Notes: generated from the letters alone by a model not told the origin. A stretch of DNA of 64,000 nt from Halobacteriovorax marinus (GCA_002163155.1 MAAO01000016.1:248001-312000), one strand, 5' to 3'; counted from the stretch's first letter, positions 27,736 through 57,132 are shown. Numbers and translations: made by a program.

Positions 27736-27762
27736 AAAGGCCCACTTCTGTGGGCCTTTTTA
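27736..27762 (+). terminator. Intrinsic terminator after rpsI
   Basis: GGCCCAC and GTGGGCC form a perfect 7-base-pair stem with a TTCT loop, preceded by AAA and followed by a run of five Ts. It ends the rplM-rpsI unit. Confidence 0.93.
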
Positions 27763-27776
27763 TTTTAAACTCTACT

Positions 27777-30389
27777 ATGTCTAATCAAAATATTGTTATT
27801 AAGGGCGCTCGTACTCATAATCTAAAAAATTTAGATTTGAAGATAAGGCTCAATTCTATAACTTGTATATGTGGACCTTCTGGCTCCGGTAAATCTTCAT
27901 TGGCTTTTCATACAATACTGACAGAATCTAAGCGAAGATTTATGAATTCGTTTCCAAGTGATGTTAAATTTTTTTGGGATATTCCTCAGTCTGCTGATGT
28001 TGATGAGATTACTCCTGTGCTTCCTGTTTGGGGTTTGGCTCAATCAAATCCTGTTGTGGGTTCAAGGCCCTGCGCCGTTGACCTGATGGGGGTGAATGAA
28101 AGGCTTTCCAAAATTCTATATTCTCTTGGGAAAAACTATTGTCCAGTCCATAAGGAGCCATTAGAGGTTAAGCTATCTCTAGATGAAATGTTAGAATTTA
28201 TAAATAAACAAAAAATAGATTCAAAAGACGTTGTTCACCTCTTTTTAGACCGAGATGACTATTCATCTATTTATGGAGATACCTTTTTTCCATCTAGGTC
28301 CTATGAGGAGGGAGTCTGTGATTTTGATGATAGTCATAGGTACTGGGAACTTCTAAAGTTTAGGTACTCTAAGATAGGTAAGTTGGAAAATAGGCTTAAA
28401 GAGCTCCGACTAAATAGTACTTCTGGTTCTTTGCTTATTTATATTCCAGCCGTTGATAGTAAGTGTGTAATTAGAATATCAAAAGAAAGGAAATGCTCAA
28501 AATGTGAAAAAGTCGAAAAAATAAAAATTTCTTCACCTTTAGTCTTTTCTCCTTTTTCTCCTTTAGGTGCTTGTGACAATTGTTCTGGGCATGGATTAAA
28601 TTTGGAATATGATAGGGAGAAAATTGTTAAGAATGATCGGTTATCTTTAAAAGAGGGGGCTGTAAACTTTCTTACGTATTCTCATTTTAAGCATATTTTT
28701 CCAGACATGATTAGAGAGGCTAAAAAAGCTGGGTTTGATACAAATGTTCCCTTTCATAAATTAAGTAAAAAGGTTTGGACCTTTTTGGAAAATGGTTCAG
28801 GTAGTTATTGTGGTTTACTTGTAATGTACGATTATTTAGAAACCAAGAAATATAAAAAGAATATAAGAATTTTAATTCGTTCTTTAAAGTCTGAAGTAAT
28901 TTGCGAAAGTTGCGACAGTACACGTTTGAGTAGGGATTTACTGTCTTTTAGAATTCCACAACTTAAGAGGTTTGATTTAGAAACTATTTTGAAATTTAAC
29001 TTCAATCAGCTTTTTGAGTTTGTTATTGAGTTAGAGAAAGTAAAAGATAAAATTGTAAATTGGAAAGATGTTTCAAGAATGATTAGTGCTCTTAAAGGTA
29101 TTTTAAAAGTGTCTCTTGATTTAGGATTGGGGCATTTATCATTGTTATCTAAGGTTAAAGCTTTATCTATAAATAATTATCAAAAAATAATACTAGTAAA
29201 GTATCTTTCTTTTGAAGGATCTGGTTCACTTTTTATTTTAGATGAATCTAGTTTAGGCCTAGATTTGAGTGAACAAAAAGTACTACTAAAGTACTTAAGA
29301 AAATTGAAATCAAGCTTCAATACAATTGTCTTGGTTGATCATAGTGATTTCTTGCAACGAAATAGTGATGAAATTATATTGATGGGTCCAGGTGCTGGAC
29401 CTGATGGTGGAAAAATAACTTATCAAGGTAAATATAAATCACAATCTTTATCTAAACCGAAAAAGAGGATAGAGAAGAATCTTGAAGAATTTTCTATTGC
29501 TAAAATAACTACGCAAAATTTTAGTCTAGAAAATATAAATGTTGCAATTAATGGACTTAATATTGTCCGTGGAAAAAGTTACTCTAGTAAGAAAGAAATA
29601 TATATAGAGGGTTTAGCTAATATTGTTTCAGAAGTCTTAGGGCTCGATAAAATTTCAAAAAGTGAAGTAGATTTTAAAAGACCCAAGAAGTTACCCAACT
29701 TTTCTAAAGTTCTAGTGCTTAATTCAAAGTTTAATAAGTTCAGTTCTCGGTCCTCTGTGGGAACAATGATTGGACTCACTCCTTATATTAGAAAGTATTA
29801 TGCCAACTTGCCCGTATCAAAAAATCTAGGCTTAAAAGATGGACATTTTTCTTCTAACTCGGAATTAGGGAAGTGTATCAGTTGTGAAGGCAAGGGCTTA
29901 GTCTCTGTTGATATGCAGTTCTTAGAAGATATTCAGTTTGTTTGTGATGATTGTAAGGGGATGAAGCTAAAACCTTTTATAGCAACAATAACAGATGGGA
30001 ATTTTTCAATTTACGAAACGCTTAGCAAGCCAATGAGTGAAGTTATTCCTAATTTATCGACAAGCTCTTATGGAAGAGGACTAACTCCAAAAGGAAAACG
30101 AATATGGGAGTATCTTAAACTTTTAAATTTAGATTACTTAAGTTTGGATCGCTCTCTTAGTTCACTCTCTGGTGGTGAAAAGCAGCGACTTAAACTACTT
30201 TCAGAGCTTCAAAAAAATATCGAAAATTCATTAATAATCTTTGAAGACTTGTCGTTTGGCCTCTCTCACCGTGAAATATATAAGATTGGAGAATTCCTCG
30301 ACTCATTGATTAAGAAGGGGAATACAATCGTTTTAGTGGACGAAAATGAGCACTTCTCAAGTTATGCGGACAGAATAATTAATGTGTAA
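27777..30389 (+). CDS. UvrA-like ABC ATPase with one degenerate ATP site
   Basis: UvrA scans DNA for damage in nucleotide excision repair. This 870-residue relative keeps the UvrA plan: KGARTHNLKNLDL, Walker A GPSGSGKSS (about 32-40), two zinc modules (CSKC with CDNC around 235-275, CISC with CDDC around 700-725), MGPGAGPDGG, and LSGGEKQR (about 798-805). The second Walker A is absent (RGKSYSSKKE where GxSGSGKST belongs), the second Walker B reads IIFEDLS, and the first signature (ALSINNYQKI) is lost. It is shorter than UvrA (about 940 aa). The ATG at 27777 is preferred over a GTG at 27750 that lies inside the terminator; neither has a good SD. It is likely a paralogue, not the housekeeping uvrA. 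Confidence 0.85.
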   Translation: MSNQNIVIKGARTHNLKNLDLKIRLNSITCICGPSGSGKSSLAFHTILTESKRRFMNSFPSDVKFFWDIPQSADVDEITPVLPVWGLAQSNPVVGSRPCAVDLMGVNERLSKILYSLGKNYCPVHKEPLEVKLSLDEMLEFINKQKIDSKDVVHLFLDRDDYSSIYGDTFFPSRSYEEGVCDFDDSHRYWELLKFRYSKIGKLENRLKELRLNSTSGSLLIYIPAVDSKCVIRISKERKCSKCEKVEKIKISSPLVFSPFSPLGACDNCSGHGLNLEYDREKIVKNDRLSLKEGAVNFLTYSHFKHIFPDMIREAKKAGFDTNVPFHKLSKKVWTFLENGSGSYCGLLVMYDYLETKKYKKNIRILIRSLKSEVICESCDSTRLSRDLLSFRIPQLKRFDLETILKFNFNQLFEFVIELEKVKDKIVNWKDVSRMISALKGILKVSLDLGLGHLSLLSKVKALSINNYQKIILVKYLSFEGSGSLFILDESSLGLDLSEQKVLLKYLRKLKSSFNTIVLVDHSDFLQRNSDEIILMGPGAGPDGGKITYQGKYKSQSLSKPKKRIEKNLEEFSIAKITTQNFSLENINVAINGLNIVRGKSYSSKKEIYIEGLANIVSEVLGLDKISKSEVDFKRPKKLPNFSKVLVLNSKFNKFSSRSSVGTMIGLTPYIRKYYANLPVSKNLGLKDGHFSSNSELGKCISCEGKGLVSVDMQFLEDIQFVCDDCKGMKLKPFIATITDGNFSIYETLSKPMSEVIPNLSTSSYGRGLTPKGKRIWEYLKLLNLDYLSLDRSLSSLSGGEKQRLKLLSELQKNIENSLIIFEDLSFGLSHREIYKIGEFLDSLIKKGNTIVLVDENEHFSSYADRIINV

Positions 30390-30433: not shown

Positions 30434-30460
30434 TAAAGAATTTGCAGAAATAGCCGATAA
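30434..30460 (+). promoter_or_regulatory. Sigma-28 (FliA)-type promoter candidate
   Basis: TAAA at 30434-30437 and GCCGATAA at 30453-30460 are separated by exactly 15 bases, an exact match to the E. coli FliA consensus TAAA-N15-GCCGATAA. It lies in the intergenic gap, on the right strand and 32 bases before the start of the secreted-protein gene. If used, it ties the protease operon to the flagellar regulon. The two flagellin genes in this window do not show the same exact match, which is a caution. Confidence 0.6.
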
Positions 30461-30492
30461 TAAAGGTAGGGTTTTAATTAGAGGCTGTACCT

Positions 30493-31230
30493 ATGATCAA
30501 ATTTCTAGCTTTTTTATTCATTATTTCGATTCATTCGATAGTCAGTGCAGCCACGTTTATTCCCTTGTCTCTAGATAAACAATTGGAAGATGCTTCAGGT
30601 GTTTTAAAGGGAAAGTTTGTTGGTCTCTCTTATAGAAAAATGGGTGAAAACAAAATTATCACAGAAGCCACTTTTCAAATTATAGAAAGTTCGGGAATAA
30701 AACAAAGAGATATAATTAATAAAAATAATTTCAAAGTTATTTATCCCGGTGGAAAATGGCAAAATTTAGACTATAGAGTATCTGGTACTCCAACTTTTAA
30801 GCCAAATGAAGTTACTTTATTAGTTGTAAAGAAATCTCCCATTGGCTTTATAGTGAAAGGTCTAGCTATGGGAAAATATCTTATACAAGAAAGTAGAGAA
30901 GAGACCTTCTATAAATCATCAGTCTTTCCTAATCATCCAGCTCTTGGGAAAATTTCTATAAAGCAATTTAATGATAGTCTGGTAAGAAGCTTTGGCTCTC
31001 CCTTAGTGAAAGTTAAAACAGATAAATTTGTCTATGTTCCAAATAAAGATAATAGAGTTGTTTCCGGGAGAGCTCCTGCTAGTATCAGAAATAACCGTAC
31101 GATAGCGAGTGAAACTCTAGATGATAATGAAGAAAAATCATCTTCAAGTACATTTTGGCTTGTGATTCTTTTTGCAGCACTTGGTGGTTATTCAGCACTT
31201 TCCATTAAAAAGAAACATCATAGGAAATAG
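30493..31230 (+). CDS. Exported protein with C-terminal membrane anchor, unknown function
   Basis: The 245-residue protein has a signal peptide (about 1-20, ending VSAATF) and a beta-rich domain (about 25-175). A Ser-rich stretch (about 210-216) is then followed by a hydrophobic segment (about 217-235) and a basic tail KKKHHRK, which is the layout of a C-terminally anchored or sorted surface protein. No catalytic motif is recognised. It is separated by 5 bases from the metalloprotease gene and shares the sigma-28-like promoter, so it may act with that protease, for example as an inhibitor, substrate or presenter; this is a guess. Confidence 0.72.
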   Translation: MIKFLAFLFIISIHSIVSAATFIPLSLDKQLEDASGVLKGKFVGLSYRKMGENKIITEATFQIIESSGIKQRDIINKNNFKVIYPGGKWQNLDYRVSGTPTFKPNEVTLLVVKKSPIGFIVKGLAMGKYLIQESREETFYKSSVFPNHPALGKISIKQFNDSLVRSFGSPLVKVKTDKFVYVPNKDNRVVSGRAPASIRNNRTIASETLDDNEEKSSSSTFWLVILFAALGGYSALSIKKKHHRK

Positions 31231-31235
31231 TAAGA

Positions 31236-33032
31236 ATGCTTAAGCCCTTTTCATTCATTCTTCTTCTCTTGATATCTTTATCAGCGCAAGCATTTGTCAT
31301 AAATAGAGTCTCAAATGGTAGTTATATAAAGTGGCAATCGGGTAAAGTTATTAATTTAAATTTATCAACATCAAACTTGGATGGCTTAAGTAGCGCTAAT
31401 GTTCAAAGTATTGTTGCTAACTCTGTAAGTCAGTGGACTTCAAAAATACCAAATCAGGTTAAATTGTTCACAACAAATGATGGTGAGTTTTCTTCTCGAA
31501 ATGATATTTATTTTCAAAATAATAGTGTGTTTTTTTCAGATCCTACGATCGTGGCATCAACGACTATGTTGTCAGATATTAATACAGGTCAATTATATGA
31601 AGCAGATATTATTTTAAATGATTCACAACATACATTCAGTACTTCCACAATAAGTAAGAAATATCTTGGAAATATTATTACTCACGAAGTAGGGCACTTA
31701 CTGGGTCTTGGGCATAGTCAAATTTTAGATGCTTCAATGTTTTATGAGTTACGTAAAGGACAAAGTCTACTACATGACGACGATAATAGTGGTGTAAGAC
31801 ATTTGTATGGAACGTCGGGTTTAGGAACTATAAGTGGAACTGTAGCTGGCAGTGCGGGCCTTATATCGATATTTGGAGCACATGTTATAGCATTTAGTTT
31901 GCAGAAAGGAGAAGAGGTTGCTTCGTCTGTTTCAGATTCAAATGGATCATTTGTTATTAATAATCTACCTTTGAATGAGACTTACTTTCTCTACGTGGAA
32001 CCTTTGAATAATTTATCATCGCTTCCATCTTATTATAGCGTTCGAAAGAAAAATTTCTGTGACTCGAATAACTCATACAAGGGAGCATTCTTTCAGAGAT
32101 GCTTTGGTAGTGATAGAGGTCATCCCTATGGAATAAAACTTTCCTCTTCTACTGTAAATATTAATGTGGGTTATGTTTCAATAAAGTGTGGCTTAGATGT
32201 TTCAGGTGATTACAATCTTTCAAAAGGTAGTTCGAATAGTATAAACCTTGTCTCTCAGGATATTTCAAATCACTATATCGGTAGCTCAAGTGTCGGTTTT
32301 TTTAATTCCAAAAATATTGCAGGTACAGTTGTATTTGATGACGCTCAAGATGAATATAGTCTAAACCTCTCTCAACATAATCTGTCTTCTATATATCCAG
32401 GAAAAGATCTCTATCTTGAAGTCCAAATTCATACTCAACCATTTTTCTCTCCATTAAGAGTAAAGGCTTCTCTAGATAATGCAGATTATATGACGCCCAT
32501 TTTGTATCCCTCAACTCCTTCTATTCCAATCGATGCGAATGGGAATTATGACCTAGATATAAAAATTAGAATCCCAATGAATTTGGATCAAAGCAAGAAT
32601 GTTTTCTCTTTAAAACTATTTCCTGAAAGTTTAGATAATCTGTCTTACAGTCCATACGTGCAAGATATCTTTACTGTGGGGAAAATTCACTATAATGAGG
32701 GAAGGCATTTCTATTTCATGACGACTAGGCTCATAGAGAAAGTGGGAATTGATTATTACCAGGTTAGTGAAAAAAATTATGGATCTCTGTCCGATAATCA
32801 AAACTGTATGGATGCTAGTGGAACTTATAAGGTTGTAGCTAATACGGTTACTACGGAAAGTTTTTTAAAGAAGTCCTCTAAGAAGAAAGATGATGCTCTT
32901 CCGCTAGCATGTGGGTCAATTACGACGACACGTGGTGGTCCTACAGGTGGTGGACCCGGTGCGTCGCTCGTTTTGACAGGTTTTTTCATGATTTTGGCCT
33001 TAAGATTCAAATCATCTCAGATTCTCGAATAA
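31236..33032 (+). CDS. Secreted matrixin-like zinc metalloprotease with C-terminal sorting-type tail
   Basis: This is a probable secreted or surface endopeptidase. The 598-residue product has a signal peptide (about 1-19, ending LSAQA), a catalytic domain (about 30-190) with the zinc motif HEVGHLLGLGH (His, His, His) at about 150-160 and a Met-turn ASMFYEL about 8 residues later, as in M10 matrixins, then a carboxypeptidase-regulatory-like beta domain (about 195-255) and a long beta-rich part with paired cysteines. The last 40 residues hold a Gly-rich run RGGPTGGGPG, a hydrophobic segment and RFK, like GlyGly-CTERM or MYXO-CTERM tails. In a predatory bacterium such an enzyme could act on prey, which is inference. 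Confidence 0.85.
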   Translation: MLKPFSFILLLLISLSAQAFVINRVSNGSYIKWQSGKVINLNLSTSNLDGLSSANVQSIVANSVSQWTSKIPNQVKLFTTNDGEFSSRNDIYFQNNSVFFSDPTIVASTTMLSDINTGQLYEADIILNDSQHTFSTSTISKKYLGNIITHEVGHLLGLGHSQILDASMFYELRKGQSLLHDDDNSGVRHLYGTSGLGTISGTVAGSAGLISIFGAHVIAFSLQKGEEVASSVSDSNGSFVINNLPLNETYFLYVEPLNNLSSLPSYYSVRKKNFCDSNNSYKGAFFQRCFGSDRGHPYGIKLSSSTVNINVGYVSIKCGLDVSGDYNLSKGSSNSINLVSQDISNHYIGSSSVGFFNSKNIAGTVVFDDAQDEYSLNLSQHNLSSIYPGKDLYLEVQIHTQPFFSPLRVKASLDNADYMTPILYPSTPSIPIDANGNYDLDIKIRIPMNLDQSKNVFSLKLFPESLDNLSYSPYVQDIFTVGKIHYNEGRHFYFMTTRLIEKVGIDYYQVSEKNYGSLSDNQNCMDASGTYKVVANTVTTESFLKKSSKKKDDALPLACGSITTTRGGPTGGGPGASLVLTGFFMILALRFKSSQILE

Positions 33033-33106: not shown

Positions 33107-33580
33107 ATGAGAAAATGGATTTTTTCAGTATTTATTTTAGTTCTATCATTTACCTCTTACTCACAAGATTTAATGGGCGAGAGAATTCGAAGAATTTCGA
33201 GTTCTAAAAAGTCTGTCTATTTTGATGGTGGGATATTTCATAATGGTGGCCCCAAAAGAAAGTCTAAACTAAAGGCTGTTCGTCATTCTTTTGCCCCTAA
33301 GAGAGGGTATGAGCGAATTGTTTTTGACTTTACAACAAGTAAAATTCCGAGAGTGTATGGAAATATTTCTTCAGGAGAGAGGAAGTTGTATGTGGATTTC
33401 TTCGACACGGAATTAACAAGTTCTATAAATTCATTTGGCAAAAGTAAATTTGTAAATGAAATTAAATTTTTTCCCATTAGCAAAGACTCACTATCTATTG
33501 AGTTATCTTTTACCAAGTCAGCTAGTATAGATATTTTCTATCTTAGTGCACCTGGTAGATTAGTAATTGATGTAAAATAA
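33107..33580 (+). CDS. Exported AMIN-like domain protein
   Basis: The 157-residue product has a signal peptide (about 1-19, ending TSYSQ) and a single beta-rich domain (about 60-157). The pattern YERIVFDFTTSKIPRVYG followed by KLYVDFFDT and ending APGRLVIDVK is that of AMIN domains, which localise envelope proteins to peptidoglycan, as in the N-terminal part of PilQ. It stands alone, without an amidase or secretin domain. It lies 74 bases after the protease gene and 13 bases before lon. Confidence 0.7.
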   Translation: MRKWIFSVFILVLSFTSYSQDLMGERIRRISSSKKSVYFDGGIFHNGGPKRKSKLKAVRHSFAPKRGYERIVFDFTTSKIPRVYGNISSGERKLYVDFFDTELTSSINSFGKSKFVNEIKFFPISKDSLSIELSFTKSASIDIFYLSAPGRLVIDVK

Positions 33581-52674: not shown

Positions 52675-52845
52675 AGTTTAAAGGTGATTGGAAAGGTTTG
52701 CCTAGTCTTAGAAGTGTATAAAAAGTTTTCACTTTTTTCTAAAGAAAGAAATGAGAACGTCGAAGAGAGTAGTGAAGGATGTGTCATGGATGACATATCG
52801 ATCAGTAAAAAAGATTTTACTGAATTCCACATCAAGGAGGATGAA

Positions 52846-53691
52846 ATGGGACTTCGCATAAATACGAACGTAGCTTCGTTAAACGCTCAGAGAAATTTGA
52901 GTAACACACGTCTAAATTTGAACAGGTCGCTAGAGAAACTATCATCTGGTCAAAGAATCAACAGAGCAGGCGACGATGCCGCTGGTCTCGCAATTTCAGA
53001 AAATCTTAAAGCACAAATTAGAGGTCTAGGCCAAGCAGAACGAAATGCTGAAGATGGTATTTCACTAGTTCAAATTGCTGAAGGTGCCTTAGGCGAAGTT
53101 TCAAACATTCTAATTCGTCTTAGAGAACTATCTGTCCAAGCAGCTTCTGATACTATTGGAGCTACTGAAAGAAAATTTCTAAATGTTGAATTTGAGCAAT
53201 TAACTTCTGAAGTTGATCGTATTGCCAACTCAACAGAATTTAACCGAGTTCCATTATTAAATGGTACTGGTGCTGTATTTGATATCCAAATCGGAACGAG
53301 AAATGACCCTATTAGTGATAGATTAACATTCGATGCTTCAAGCGCTGATGTTAACGTCGCAGCTCTTGGGCTAAACCTTGCTTCAGTTGCTGATAAGATT
53401 TCTGCACAGAACTCACTATCATCAATTGACCAGGCTATTGTTTCAGTTTCAGGTATTAGAGCAGACTTTGGTGCTCTTCAAAATAGATTACAATCAACAA
53501 TTAACAACATTGCAGTAAGTATTGAGAACCTTTCCGCAGCGAACTCTCGAGTTAGAGATACAGATATCGCCGCAGAAACTGCTGAACTAACTAAGCAGAA
53601 CATTCTCATGACAGCTGGTACATCGGTTTTAGCGCAAGCGAACTCAAGTACAAAGAATGCACTAAGCCTAATTCAAGCAGCAGCCCAGTAA
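52846..53691 (+). CDS. Flagellin (first copy)
   Basis: Flagellin is the subunit of the flagellar filament. The ATG at 52846 is chosen because AAGGAGG lies 5 bases upstream and because MGLRINTNVASLNAQRNL is the usual start. The 281-residue product has only D0/D1 domains: N-terminal SSGQRINRAGDDAAGLAISE (about 40-59) and C-terminal ENLSAANSRVRDTDIAAETA (split helix, about 235-255) with a tail ending LIQAAAQ. The surface-exposed D2/D3 part is missing, as in Bdellovibrio-type flagellins. It is highly similar to the second copy 268 bases downstream. Confidence 0.96.
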   Translation: MGLRINTNVASLNAQRNLSNTRLNLNRSLEKLSSGQRINRAGDDAAGLAISENLKAQIRGLGQAERNAEDGISLVQIAEGALGEVSNILIRLRELSVQAASDTIGATERKFLNVEFEQLTSEVDRIANSTEFNRVPLLNGTGAVFDIQIGTRNDPISDRLTFDASSADVNVAALGLNLASVADKISAQNSLSSIDQAIVSVSGIRADFGALQNRLQSTINNIAVSIENLSAANSRVRDTDIAAETAELTKQNILMTAGTSVLAQANSSTKNALSLIQAAAQ

Positions 53692-53958: not shown

Positions 53959-54792
53959 ATGGGAATGAGAATTAACACTAACGTGTCATCACTAGCGGCA
54001 CAGAGAACGTTAAGTAAAACATCAATGAATTTAAATAGTAACTTGAGAAAATTATCCTCAGGTGAAAGAATAACGCGAGCTGCGGATGACGCTGCAGGAC
54101 TCGCTATAAGTGAAAACTTAAGAGCTCAGATTAGAGGAATGAGGCAGGCAAAGAGAAATGCCAACGATGCCATCTCCCTAATTCAGACAGCAGAAGGTGG
54201 ATTGAATGAAATTTCTAACATCGTCATCAGACTTAGAGAACTCTCAATGCAAGCAGCAACAGATACGCTTGGATCAGAAGAGAGAGGGTTCTCAGATATT
54301 GAATTTCAAAGTCTCAAAGAAGAGATTGATAGGATTGCAAGATCTAGTGAATTCAATGGGGTTAAGTTACTTGATGGAACAGGTGGGAGAATGGAATTCC
54401 AGGTTGGGATTCACAACGATCCGCTCAACGACAGACTCACATATGATGGGACTGGATCGGATGCTACGATCACTACGCTTGGACTGTCTGCGGAATCTGT
54501 TGGCTCGAAAGAAGGAGCACAAATTTCACTTAAGAAACTTGATAATGCACTTGTGCAGATCAACGGTGTTAGGTCCACAATGGGTGCCTTACAAAATAGA
54601 CTTTCTTCAACGGTCAACAATTTGGGGATTAGTGAAGAGAATTTAAGTGCGGCTAAGTCACGCATTAGAGATGTTGACATCGCAAGCGAAACTGCTGAGA
54701 TGGCTAAAAACAACATTCTAATGCAATCGGGTGCATCGGTACTCGCGCAAGCGAACCAGTTCCCGAACATAGCATTAAAATTACTTGGTTAA
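53959..54792 (+). CDS. Flagellin (second copy)
   Basis: The 277-residue product begins MGMRINTNVSSLAAQRTL and has the same D0/D1-only architecture as the first copy, with LSSGERITRAADDAAGLAIS (about 37-56) and ENLSAAKSRIRDVDIASETA (about 232-251). The C-terminal tail is different (NQFPNIALKLLG in place of the first copy's tail), so the two flagellins may occupy different filament positions. It is preceded by GAAGGAGA and followed by a terminator. Two copies in tandem are common in filaments with several flagellins. Confidence 0.96.
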   Translation: MGMRINTNVSSLAAQRTLSKTSMNLNSNLRKLSSGERITRAADDAAGLAISENLRAQIRGMRQAKRNANDAISLIQTAEGGLNEISNIVIRLRELSMQAATDTLGSEERGFSDIEFQSLKEEIDRIARSSEFNGVKLLDGTGGRMEFQVGIHNDPLNDRLTYDGTGSDATITTLGLSAESVGSKEGAQISLKKLDNALVQINGVRSTMGALQNRLSSTVNNLGISEENLSAAKSRIRDVDIASETAEMAKNNILMQSGASVLAQANQFPNIALKLLG

Positions 54793-56882: not shown

Positions 56883-56904
56883 ACTTAAGAAGTTTTTCTT
56901 AAGT
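56883..56904 (+). repeat. Inverted repeat in the Flp pilin leader
   Basis: ACTTAAGAA and TTCTTAAGT form a perfect 9-base-pair stem around GTTT, 42 bases before the pilin start. A related CTTAAG-type repeat lies in the pilA leader (5151-5175). This could be a transcript-stabilising hairpin or a protein site. Confidence 0.6.
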
Positions 56905-56946
56905 TACGGACAGGACGACCGACAAGCTTATTCAAAGGAGTAAGTT

Positions 56947-57132
56947 ATGAAAAAAACTTTGCTGGCCTATTTTAAAGATGAGAGCGGACAAACTTCGACA
57001 GAGTATATCCTTCTTGTTGCAGTTGTGGCCCTAATTGTATTCAAATTTAAAAATGTGGCAACTGAGAGACTCGGTAAACTCACTGATGGAGTTTTCAATA
57101 AAGCCGATACTTTCGTAGATGAAATGGAATAA
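56947..57132 (+). CDS. Flp/Fap-type (class IVb) pilin
   Basis: This is the main subunit of the Tad pilus. The 61-residue precursor has the leader MKKTLLAYFKDESG and then QTSTEYILLVAVVALIVF, with the conserved Glu at position 5 of the mature chain and a Tyr beside it, as in Flp pilins. The mature pilin is about 47 residues. An SD AAAGGAG precedes the ATG. A probable terminator hairpin follows, so the pilin can be made in excess over the assembly genes. Confidence 0.93.
   Translation: MKKTLLAYFKDESGQTSTEYILLVAVVALIVFKFKNVATERLGKLTDGVFNKADTFVDEME

Follow-up and report, generated by a model that had tools for sequence, protein, structure and literature searches.

A probable FliA-type promoter precedes a candidate matrixin–TIMP gene pair in Halobacteriovorax marinus

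Is a secreted protease of this organism made under the control of a flagellar type of promoter, and what is the exported protein encoded between the two? The question is raised by positions 30434-33032 of the 64,000-nt stretch of DNA analysed here (the window, C5:248001-312000 of the genome), for which a preliminary description had proposed that protease production was tied to motility.

The promoter element and the genes it precedes

The sequence TAAA-N15-GCCGATAA was located at 30434-30460 on the + strand, 32 nt upstream of the ATG of ORF1 (30493), with the −35 element TAAAG at 30434-30438 and the −10 element GCCGATAA at 30453-30460, both also compared across 45 orthologous upstream regions. 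It lies in the 103-nt gap between this ATG and the end, at 30389, of a UvrA-like gene (27750-30389, + strand), which flanks the two-gene unit upstream and stands outside it; a similar gene end was found 5′ of ORF1 in several relatives. A −35 TAAA/TNAAG and a −10 NCCGATAA, correctly spaced and upstream of a gene, characterize a σ28 promoter and were found together at this site, and no σ70-like promoter scored in the same 103-nt gap. Transcription would start at about 30467, followed by a probable ribosome binding site, AGAGG (30480-30484, + strand), 8 nt 5′ of the ATG.

The preliminary description had reported an exact FliA consensus, intergenic and in the right direction, expected by chance at under 1%, in front of genes for a secreted protein and a matrixin-like protease. 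Our analysis agreed with these statements. The exact match was the only one in the window, where dinucleotide shuffles gave an expectation of 0.01 and 1 of 100 shuffles contained a match, making the chance estimate about right; strand and position were as described; and the downstream genes encode an exported 245-aa protein (ORF1) and an M10 metalloprotease. Across the whole genome (4.55 Mb, 16 contigs), we found four exact matches compared to one in the reversed control, three of them upstream of genes and one (L003) within a coding sequence. The unit possibly includes a third gene, encoding an AMIN-domain exported protein of 157 aa (33107-33580, + strand), which directly follows ORF1 in the genomes of the family (Bacteriovoracaceae-type Bdellovibrionota) that lack the protease.

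ORF1 and its partner protease

The second gene (31236-33032, + strand) encodes a 598-aa M10 (matrixin) metalloprotease, in which ORF calling, Pfam, NCBIfam and comparison with relatives delineated a signal peptide, a catalytic domain, a CarboxypepD_reg-like domain, a long tail and a signal-like C-terminal end. Its assignment to M10 followed from a match to Pfam PF00413 over residues 32-192 (49 bits against a gathering cut-off of 24) and from the HExxHxxGxxH signature, present as the zinc-binding motif HEVGHLLGLGH at 31683-31715 (+ strand) and evident in the sequence, the Pfam match and the relatives alike. Unlike the vertebrate MMP type of M10, which carries a propeptide with a cysteine switch, the protease showed no such propeptide: its catalytic match began at residue 32, which leaves no space for one behind the signal peptide. 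Its structure model reached a pLDDT of 41 and was not used; a search of the genome contigs with the protease as query gave no match.

The C-terminal end of the protease (32907-33029) contains ACGSI, GGPTGGG, a hydrophobic stretch and basic residues, an arrangement conserved in type among relatives and resembling MYXO-CTERM/GlyGly-CTERM sorting signals. The Cys motif, hydrophobic stretch and basic end resemble those of MYXO-CTERM (PMC11980579). Over its catalytic part, the protease also matched NCBIfam NF041905, which represents the myxosortase-dependent metalloproteases MXAN_2677/MXAN_2678, although weakly (38 bits) and far under the curated cut-off of 250 bits.

ORF1 (30493-31230, + strand), which the earlier reading had registered as a ‘secreted protein’ while missing its predicted TIMP-like nature, consists of a signal peptide (residues 1-19), a predicted TIMP/NTR-fold domain (about 20-170), a disordered linker and a C-terminal membrane helix (218-240), as judged from the ORF call, the structure model and conservation. 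ORF1 gave no Pfam, NCBIfam or PDB sequence match, and 23 orthologues searched at E-values up to 10 gave no TIMP or NTR Pfam match, PF00965 included. The TIMP/NTR fold was predicted from an AlphaFold2 model built on four aligned sequences, with a mean pLDDT of 72 and about 75-94 in the core. The model comprised strands over residues 36-142, a helix at 156-167, the disordered linker at ~178-217 and the C-terminal helix at 218-240. In Foldseek, the best ten matches of this model were all TIMP-1 or agrin NtA at weak E-values of 0.007 to 0.02, with other OB proteins lower in the list. VIA-align placed the TIMP-3 N-domain from the TACE complex (Z 10.3, 117 residues, rmsd 3.1) and agrin NtA at the top, followed by TIMP-1 in MMP complexes (Z 9.2-9.6) and then by other NTR domains; a Z under 8 can reflect a common arrangement, while the TIMP/NTR matches of ORF1 exceeded 8 and fell in one superfamily. 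A TIMP-like OB fold is thus the best match of the model, from an alignment that is shallow.

The putative TIMP-like domain spans 30550-31002 (+ strand), as suggested by the VIA-align register, a weak hhalign result and N-terminal conservation. VIA-align paired ORF1 residue 22 with TIMP residue 3, and hhalign gave the same register against a profile of three human TIMP N-domain sequences, at a weak score that is not significant by itself (E 0.019, probability 2.5%). A signal-peptidase cut after A19 would produce the mature start A20-T21-F22-I23-P24, in register with C1-T2-C3-V4-P5 of TIMP. The commonest mature start among the orthologues was T/A, T, F, x, P, and those in other families began with T or S, then T/S and F. 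In TIMPs, the amino and carbonyl groups of residue 1 bind the catalytic zinc of the protease and residue 2 enters the S1′ pocket. The mature domain was free of cysteine in all 45 orthologues; lacking Cys1 and the TIMP disulfides, ORF1 therefore falls outside the TIMP family as that family is defined, and the claim is that it works like a TIMP. In animals, matrixins and the TIMPs that inhibit them form a textbook pair. We regard ORF1 as probably a TIMP-like inhibitor of the protease encoded next to it.

The two genes are paired across the family. Most family genomes carry one ORF1 orthologue, the named ones being metagenome genomes called Bacteriovoracaceae and Halobacteriovoraceae, and ORF1 was directly followed by the metalloprotease at 40 of 45 family loci and by the AMIN-domain gene at the other five. 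Searching 60 family genomes with a protease profile identified a full-length copy in 43, every one of which had a TIMP-like gene directly upstream: ORF1 in 42 and, in G018, a divergent 175-aa protein of the same layout. Five of the 60 genomes had ORF1 alone and twelve had neither gene (nominal Fisher p 4e-9, uncorrected for shared descent). The retention of ORF1 without the protease in five genomes implies that it may have another role.

Across the phylum, ORF1 relatives were detected in 163 of 369 genomes. Outside the family, a gene with HExGHxxGxxH lay close downstream of the ORF1 orthologue in 11 of 20 neighbourhoods (in one case ~1.3 kb further than in the others), and none of these 20 neighbourhoods contained a FliA element with one mismatch or fewer. 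The pair is therefore older or wider than its FliA wiring, which looks like a family-specific gain or retention.

The main rival to inhibition, drawn by analogy with the Mtz-Tim pair of Listeria, accepts the TIMP-like fold and makes ORF1 a substrate or released effector, whose linker the protease would cut to shed the domain. In Listeria, the paired metzincin cleaves and frees a membrane-anchored TIMP-like lipoprotein (PMC8235301). The linker of ORF1 would suit such cleavage, being disordered and holding a strongly conserved R-x-P-A-S between the domain and the membrane helix; its most conserved part is RAPAS (31069-31083, + strand; orthologue alignment and motif count), with R193 invariant and A196 nearly so. 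Against this reading, the anchor of ORF1 is C-terminal, which leaves the mature N-terminus free as in TIMPs, and that N-terminus is conserved as T/A-T/S-F-x-P. We consider cleavage and release of this type unlikely.

A slightly less probable alternative is that ORF1 is a generic OB barrel acting as chaperone, anchor or export partner of the protease and not as its inhibitor. The weak Foldseek E-values, the presence of other OB proteins further down the same list, the lack of a sequence match of ORF1 to TIMP and the five genomes that keep ORF1 without the protease are all in line with it. TIMP/NTR entries, however, held the top ranks in both Foldseek and VIA-align, at Z 8-10 over 110-117 residues, and the partner protease belongs to the very family that TIMPs inhibit. 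Inhibition of the protease by ORF1 stays our preferred reading.

FliA, its candidate targets and the conservation of the element

FliA is encoded in this genome (contig C15), scoring 267 bits against a cut-off of 189.6 and aligning best with solved WhiG and E. coli FliA; a FliA above the curated cut-off was detected in 48 of the 50 family genomes searched. The pattern TNAAG-N15/16-CCGATA occurred in the genome at 25 sites with spacer 15 and 25 with spacer 16, compared to 5 and 5 in reversed controls. At 37 of the 50 sites, an open frame followed immediately and the element was not inside a long coding sequence. Such an element precedes motA (L061; Pfam MotA_ExbB) by 38 nt; an exact one lies upstream of a flagellin at a contig end (L069), and two further flagellins have it with one mismatch. 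In the window, TTAAG-N15-CCGACA (56899-56924, + strand), found by pattern scan and also with one mismatch, lies 23 nt before flp1 (56947-57132) of the TAD pilus operon, as expected from Bdellovibrio: the TAD operon of B. bacteriovorus is FliA-dependent (PMC5430801). Other genes among the 37 sites encode lipoproteins, secreted proteins, a FecR protein and an RHS-repeat protein. Genes for exported proteins were enriched in such elements: in a 0.86-Mb sample of the genome, 16 of 271 genes encoding a hydrophobic N-terminus had one with at most one mismatch within 150 nt upstream, compared to 8 of 456 other genes (nominal Fisher p 0.004).

Two individual sites and a protein motif were also noted. 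A FliA-type element lies 43 nt before a gene for an exported RHS-repeat protein (DUF6531, RHS_repeat; L113, G000:C5:312823, ~0.8 kb past the end of the window), possibly a surface or prey-directed polymorphic protein, and an exact FliA site at 1501-1560 of locus L001 lies a short distance 5′ of a gene whose product is a very acidic, receiver-like repeat protein; this gene diverges from one that is L,D-transpeptidase-like. The motif R-x-[I/V/P]-A-S, present in ORF1 at residues 193-197 and 202-206 (31069-31110) and also at L063, L075, L107, L117, L125, L127 and L129, occurred in 8 of 37 proteins with FliA-type promoters, some of the eight paralogue-like, compared to 11 of 817 sampled genes (nominal p 3e-7); genome-wide it was not enriched over permuted motifs, its enrichment being confined to the FliA-promoter genes. 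It tends to fall between the membrane anchor and the rest of the protein and may therefore be a processing or sorting site.

Not all motility genes carried the element. Five of the seven full flagellins had no clear FliA site, among them both flagellins in the window (adjacent genes at 52844-53691 and 53959-54792, with no recognizable σ28 element within 250 nt upstream), and among eight chemoreceptors examined only one had it, with one mismatch. The proposal of a tie to motility was supported: the element is common to motA and a flagellin, FliA is encoded and the site is conserved. The missing flagellin sites speak against a simple form of it and suggest that protease production may be connected with the attack phase and not with flagella themselves. 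The preliminary description had also suggested looking for the element before known flagellar genes, which was done with a positive outcome for motA and one flagellin (exact) and for two flagellins and flp1 (one mismatch), and had named a different σ28 consensus in this organism as a ground for rejection. On this last point, the element is shared in type with motA and flagellin, and the local consensus derived from the 45 orthologous upstream regions, T[A/C/T]AAG-N15/16-CCGATAAG, is not the exact E. coli string.

The missing flagellin and chemoreceptor sites could also mean that the element, although a real promoter, is recognized by a different sigma factor, or that FliA control here has little to do with motility. 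Two family genomes in which FliA was not over the cut-off (G029 and G039; L083 and L084) keep partly matching elements before ORF1, with TCAAG and an altered −10 (CCGAAG and CCGTTA), although they are only two drafts with uneven pattern counts. This reading appeared improbable given the exact elements at motA and one flagellin and those with one mismatch at two flagellins and flp1. In addition, the element is identical with the attack-phase consensus of B. bacteriovorus, TTAAG-N16-CCGATA (PMC3627812), and promoters of this kind are activated by FliA in E. coli (PMC5430801).

We examined the footprint of the element by seeking TNAAG-N15/16-CCGATA, with 10 fixed bases, in the 150 nt upstream of the match start in 45 ORF1 orthologues. 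It was exact in 18 of the 45, with one mismatch in 16, two in 9 and three in 2, placing 34 of 45 at one mismatch or fewer, whereas shuffles of the same upstream sequences gave 0.06% exact and about 0.9% with one mismatch. In the −35 element, T1 was present in 45, A3 in 40, A4 in 45 and G5 in 44 of the regions; in the −10 element C, C, G and A were nearly fixed, and a G after CCGATAA was common. The 45 genomes are related and their counts non-independent, but the spacers are unrelated between genera, indicating that recent copying does not simply account for the sites. No other evidence for a working site is as strong as this conservation, which points to functional constraint on the element. 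A second CCGATAAAAT box, perhaps a tandem promoter, was seen just 5′ of the −35 element upstream of the ORF1 orthologues at L100, L103 and L104.

A fortuitous origin of the 30434-30460 site in AT-rich DNA, in which case transcription of the genes would begin further upstream, was ruled out: about one exact match per genome-sized shuffle would not be unusual, yet the element persists upstream of 34 of 45 orthologues while the spacers have diverged, which refutes such an origin and leaves it a negligible probability. Taken together, these data identify 30434-30460 as very probably a FliA-type promoter, which would depend on the FliA encoded in this genome.

Proposed role and comparison with known systems

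In the combined explanation, which we hold to be somewhat better than an even bet, a FliA promoter serves the attack phase by co-expressing a matrixin with its TIMP-like inhibitor. The σ28 promoter at 30434-30460 would drive a unit of two exported, membrane-anchored proteins, with TIMP-fold ORF1 made just before its partner. The matrixin would be active once folded, because it lacks a propeptide with a cysteine switch, and ORF1 would most likely restrain it, as animal TIMPs do. The ORF1 N-terminus made by signal peptidase (A/T-T/S-F-x-P) would enter the active-site cleft, its alpha-amino and carbonyl groups binding the zinc and the side chain of position 2 filling the S1′ pocket. Placement of the inhibitor gene first and a propeptide-free protease fit a safety catch. 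Under FliA control, production of the pair would fall in the attack phase, when the cell is motile, and surface proteolysis would thereby be ready at prey contact, with the protease presumably acting at the cell surface or on prey. More tentatively, and with slightly less than even confidence, we propose that Bdellovibrionota possess an old, vertically kept matrixin–TIMP system, analogous or even homologous to animal MMP–TIMP, where control of a surface matrixin falls, in the bacteria, to a membrane-anchored TIMP without cysteines, and that one predatory family put the pair under FliA, to be co-made in the attack phase.

The kind of promoter is already known. According to the accessible part of Karunker et al. 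2013 (PMC3627812), TTAAG-N16-CCGATA occurs in 92 of 140 attack-phase promoters of B. bacteriovorus and is attributed to FliA, whose attack-phase regulon includes non-flagellar targets such as proteases and surface proteins; that part of the account does not name the two-gene unit described here. When assayed in E. coli, B. bacteriovorus FliA also drives the promoters of the TAD operon and of flagellin; its gene could not be deleted (PMC5430801). The present locus shares with that regulon (PMC3627812) the −35/−10 element, targets beyond flagella and the presence of a FliA gene; it differs in belonging to another family, in a spacer one base shorter and in that its regulation is predicted from sequence. 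The attack-phase FliA regulon is thereby extended to a second family; the pair itself would, if the proposed explanation is true, provide a candidate prey-contact protease together with its inhibitor.

With animal MMP–TIMP, the pair has in common a matrixin catalytic domain with HExxHxxGxxH, a partner with a predicted TIMP N-domain fold and, in mature ORF1, agreement at position 2 (Thr/Ser) and position 5 (Pro). It is unlike them in that ORF1 has no cysteines, no TIMP C-domain and no sequence-level similarity, in that the protease has neither propeptide nor hemopexin domain, and in its operon organization.

The operon is a candidate matrixin–TIMP pair, a pairing reported once in bacteria, in Listeria, where it is of phage origin. 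In Mtz-Tim of L. monocytogenes, the TIMP-like partner is cut by the metzincin rather than shown to inhibit it, and the authors state that, as far as they could find, bacterial proteins of TIMP-like structure had not been recorded before (PMC8235301); our search of the open-access literature found no further one. In both systems, a gene for an exported metzincin lies next to one for a membrane-anchored protein that is predicted to fold like a TIMP (PMC8235301). Listeria, a Gram-positive, has the protease first, an N-terminal lipoprotein anchor and phage-type CI/Cro control (PMC8235301), whereas here, in a Gram-negative predator lineage, the TIMP-like gene comes first, the anchor is a C-terminal membrane helix, the promoter is of the FliA type and the unit is vertically conserved. 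A pair of chromosomal genes that a predator lineage has retained in fixed order, with a conserved free N-terminus, would, if the inhibitory role is true, offer a clean bacterial model of TIMP-type inhibition.
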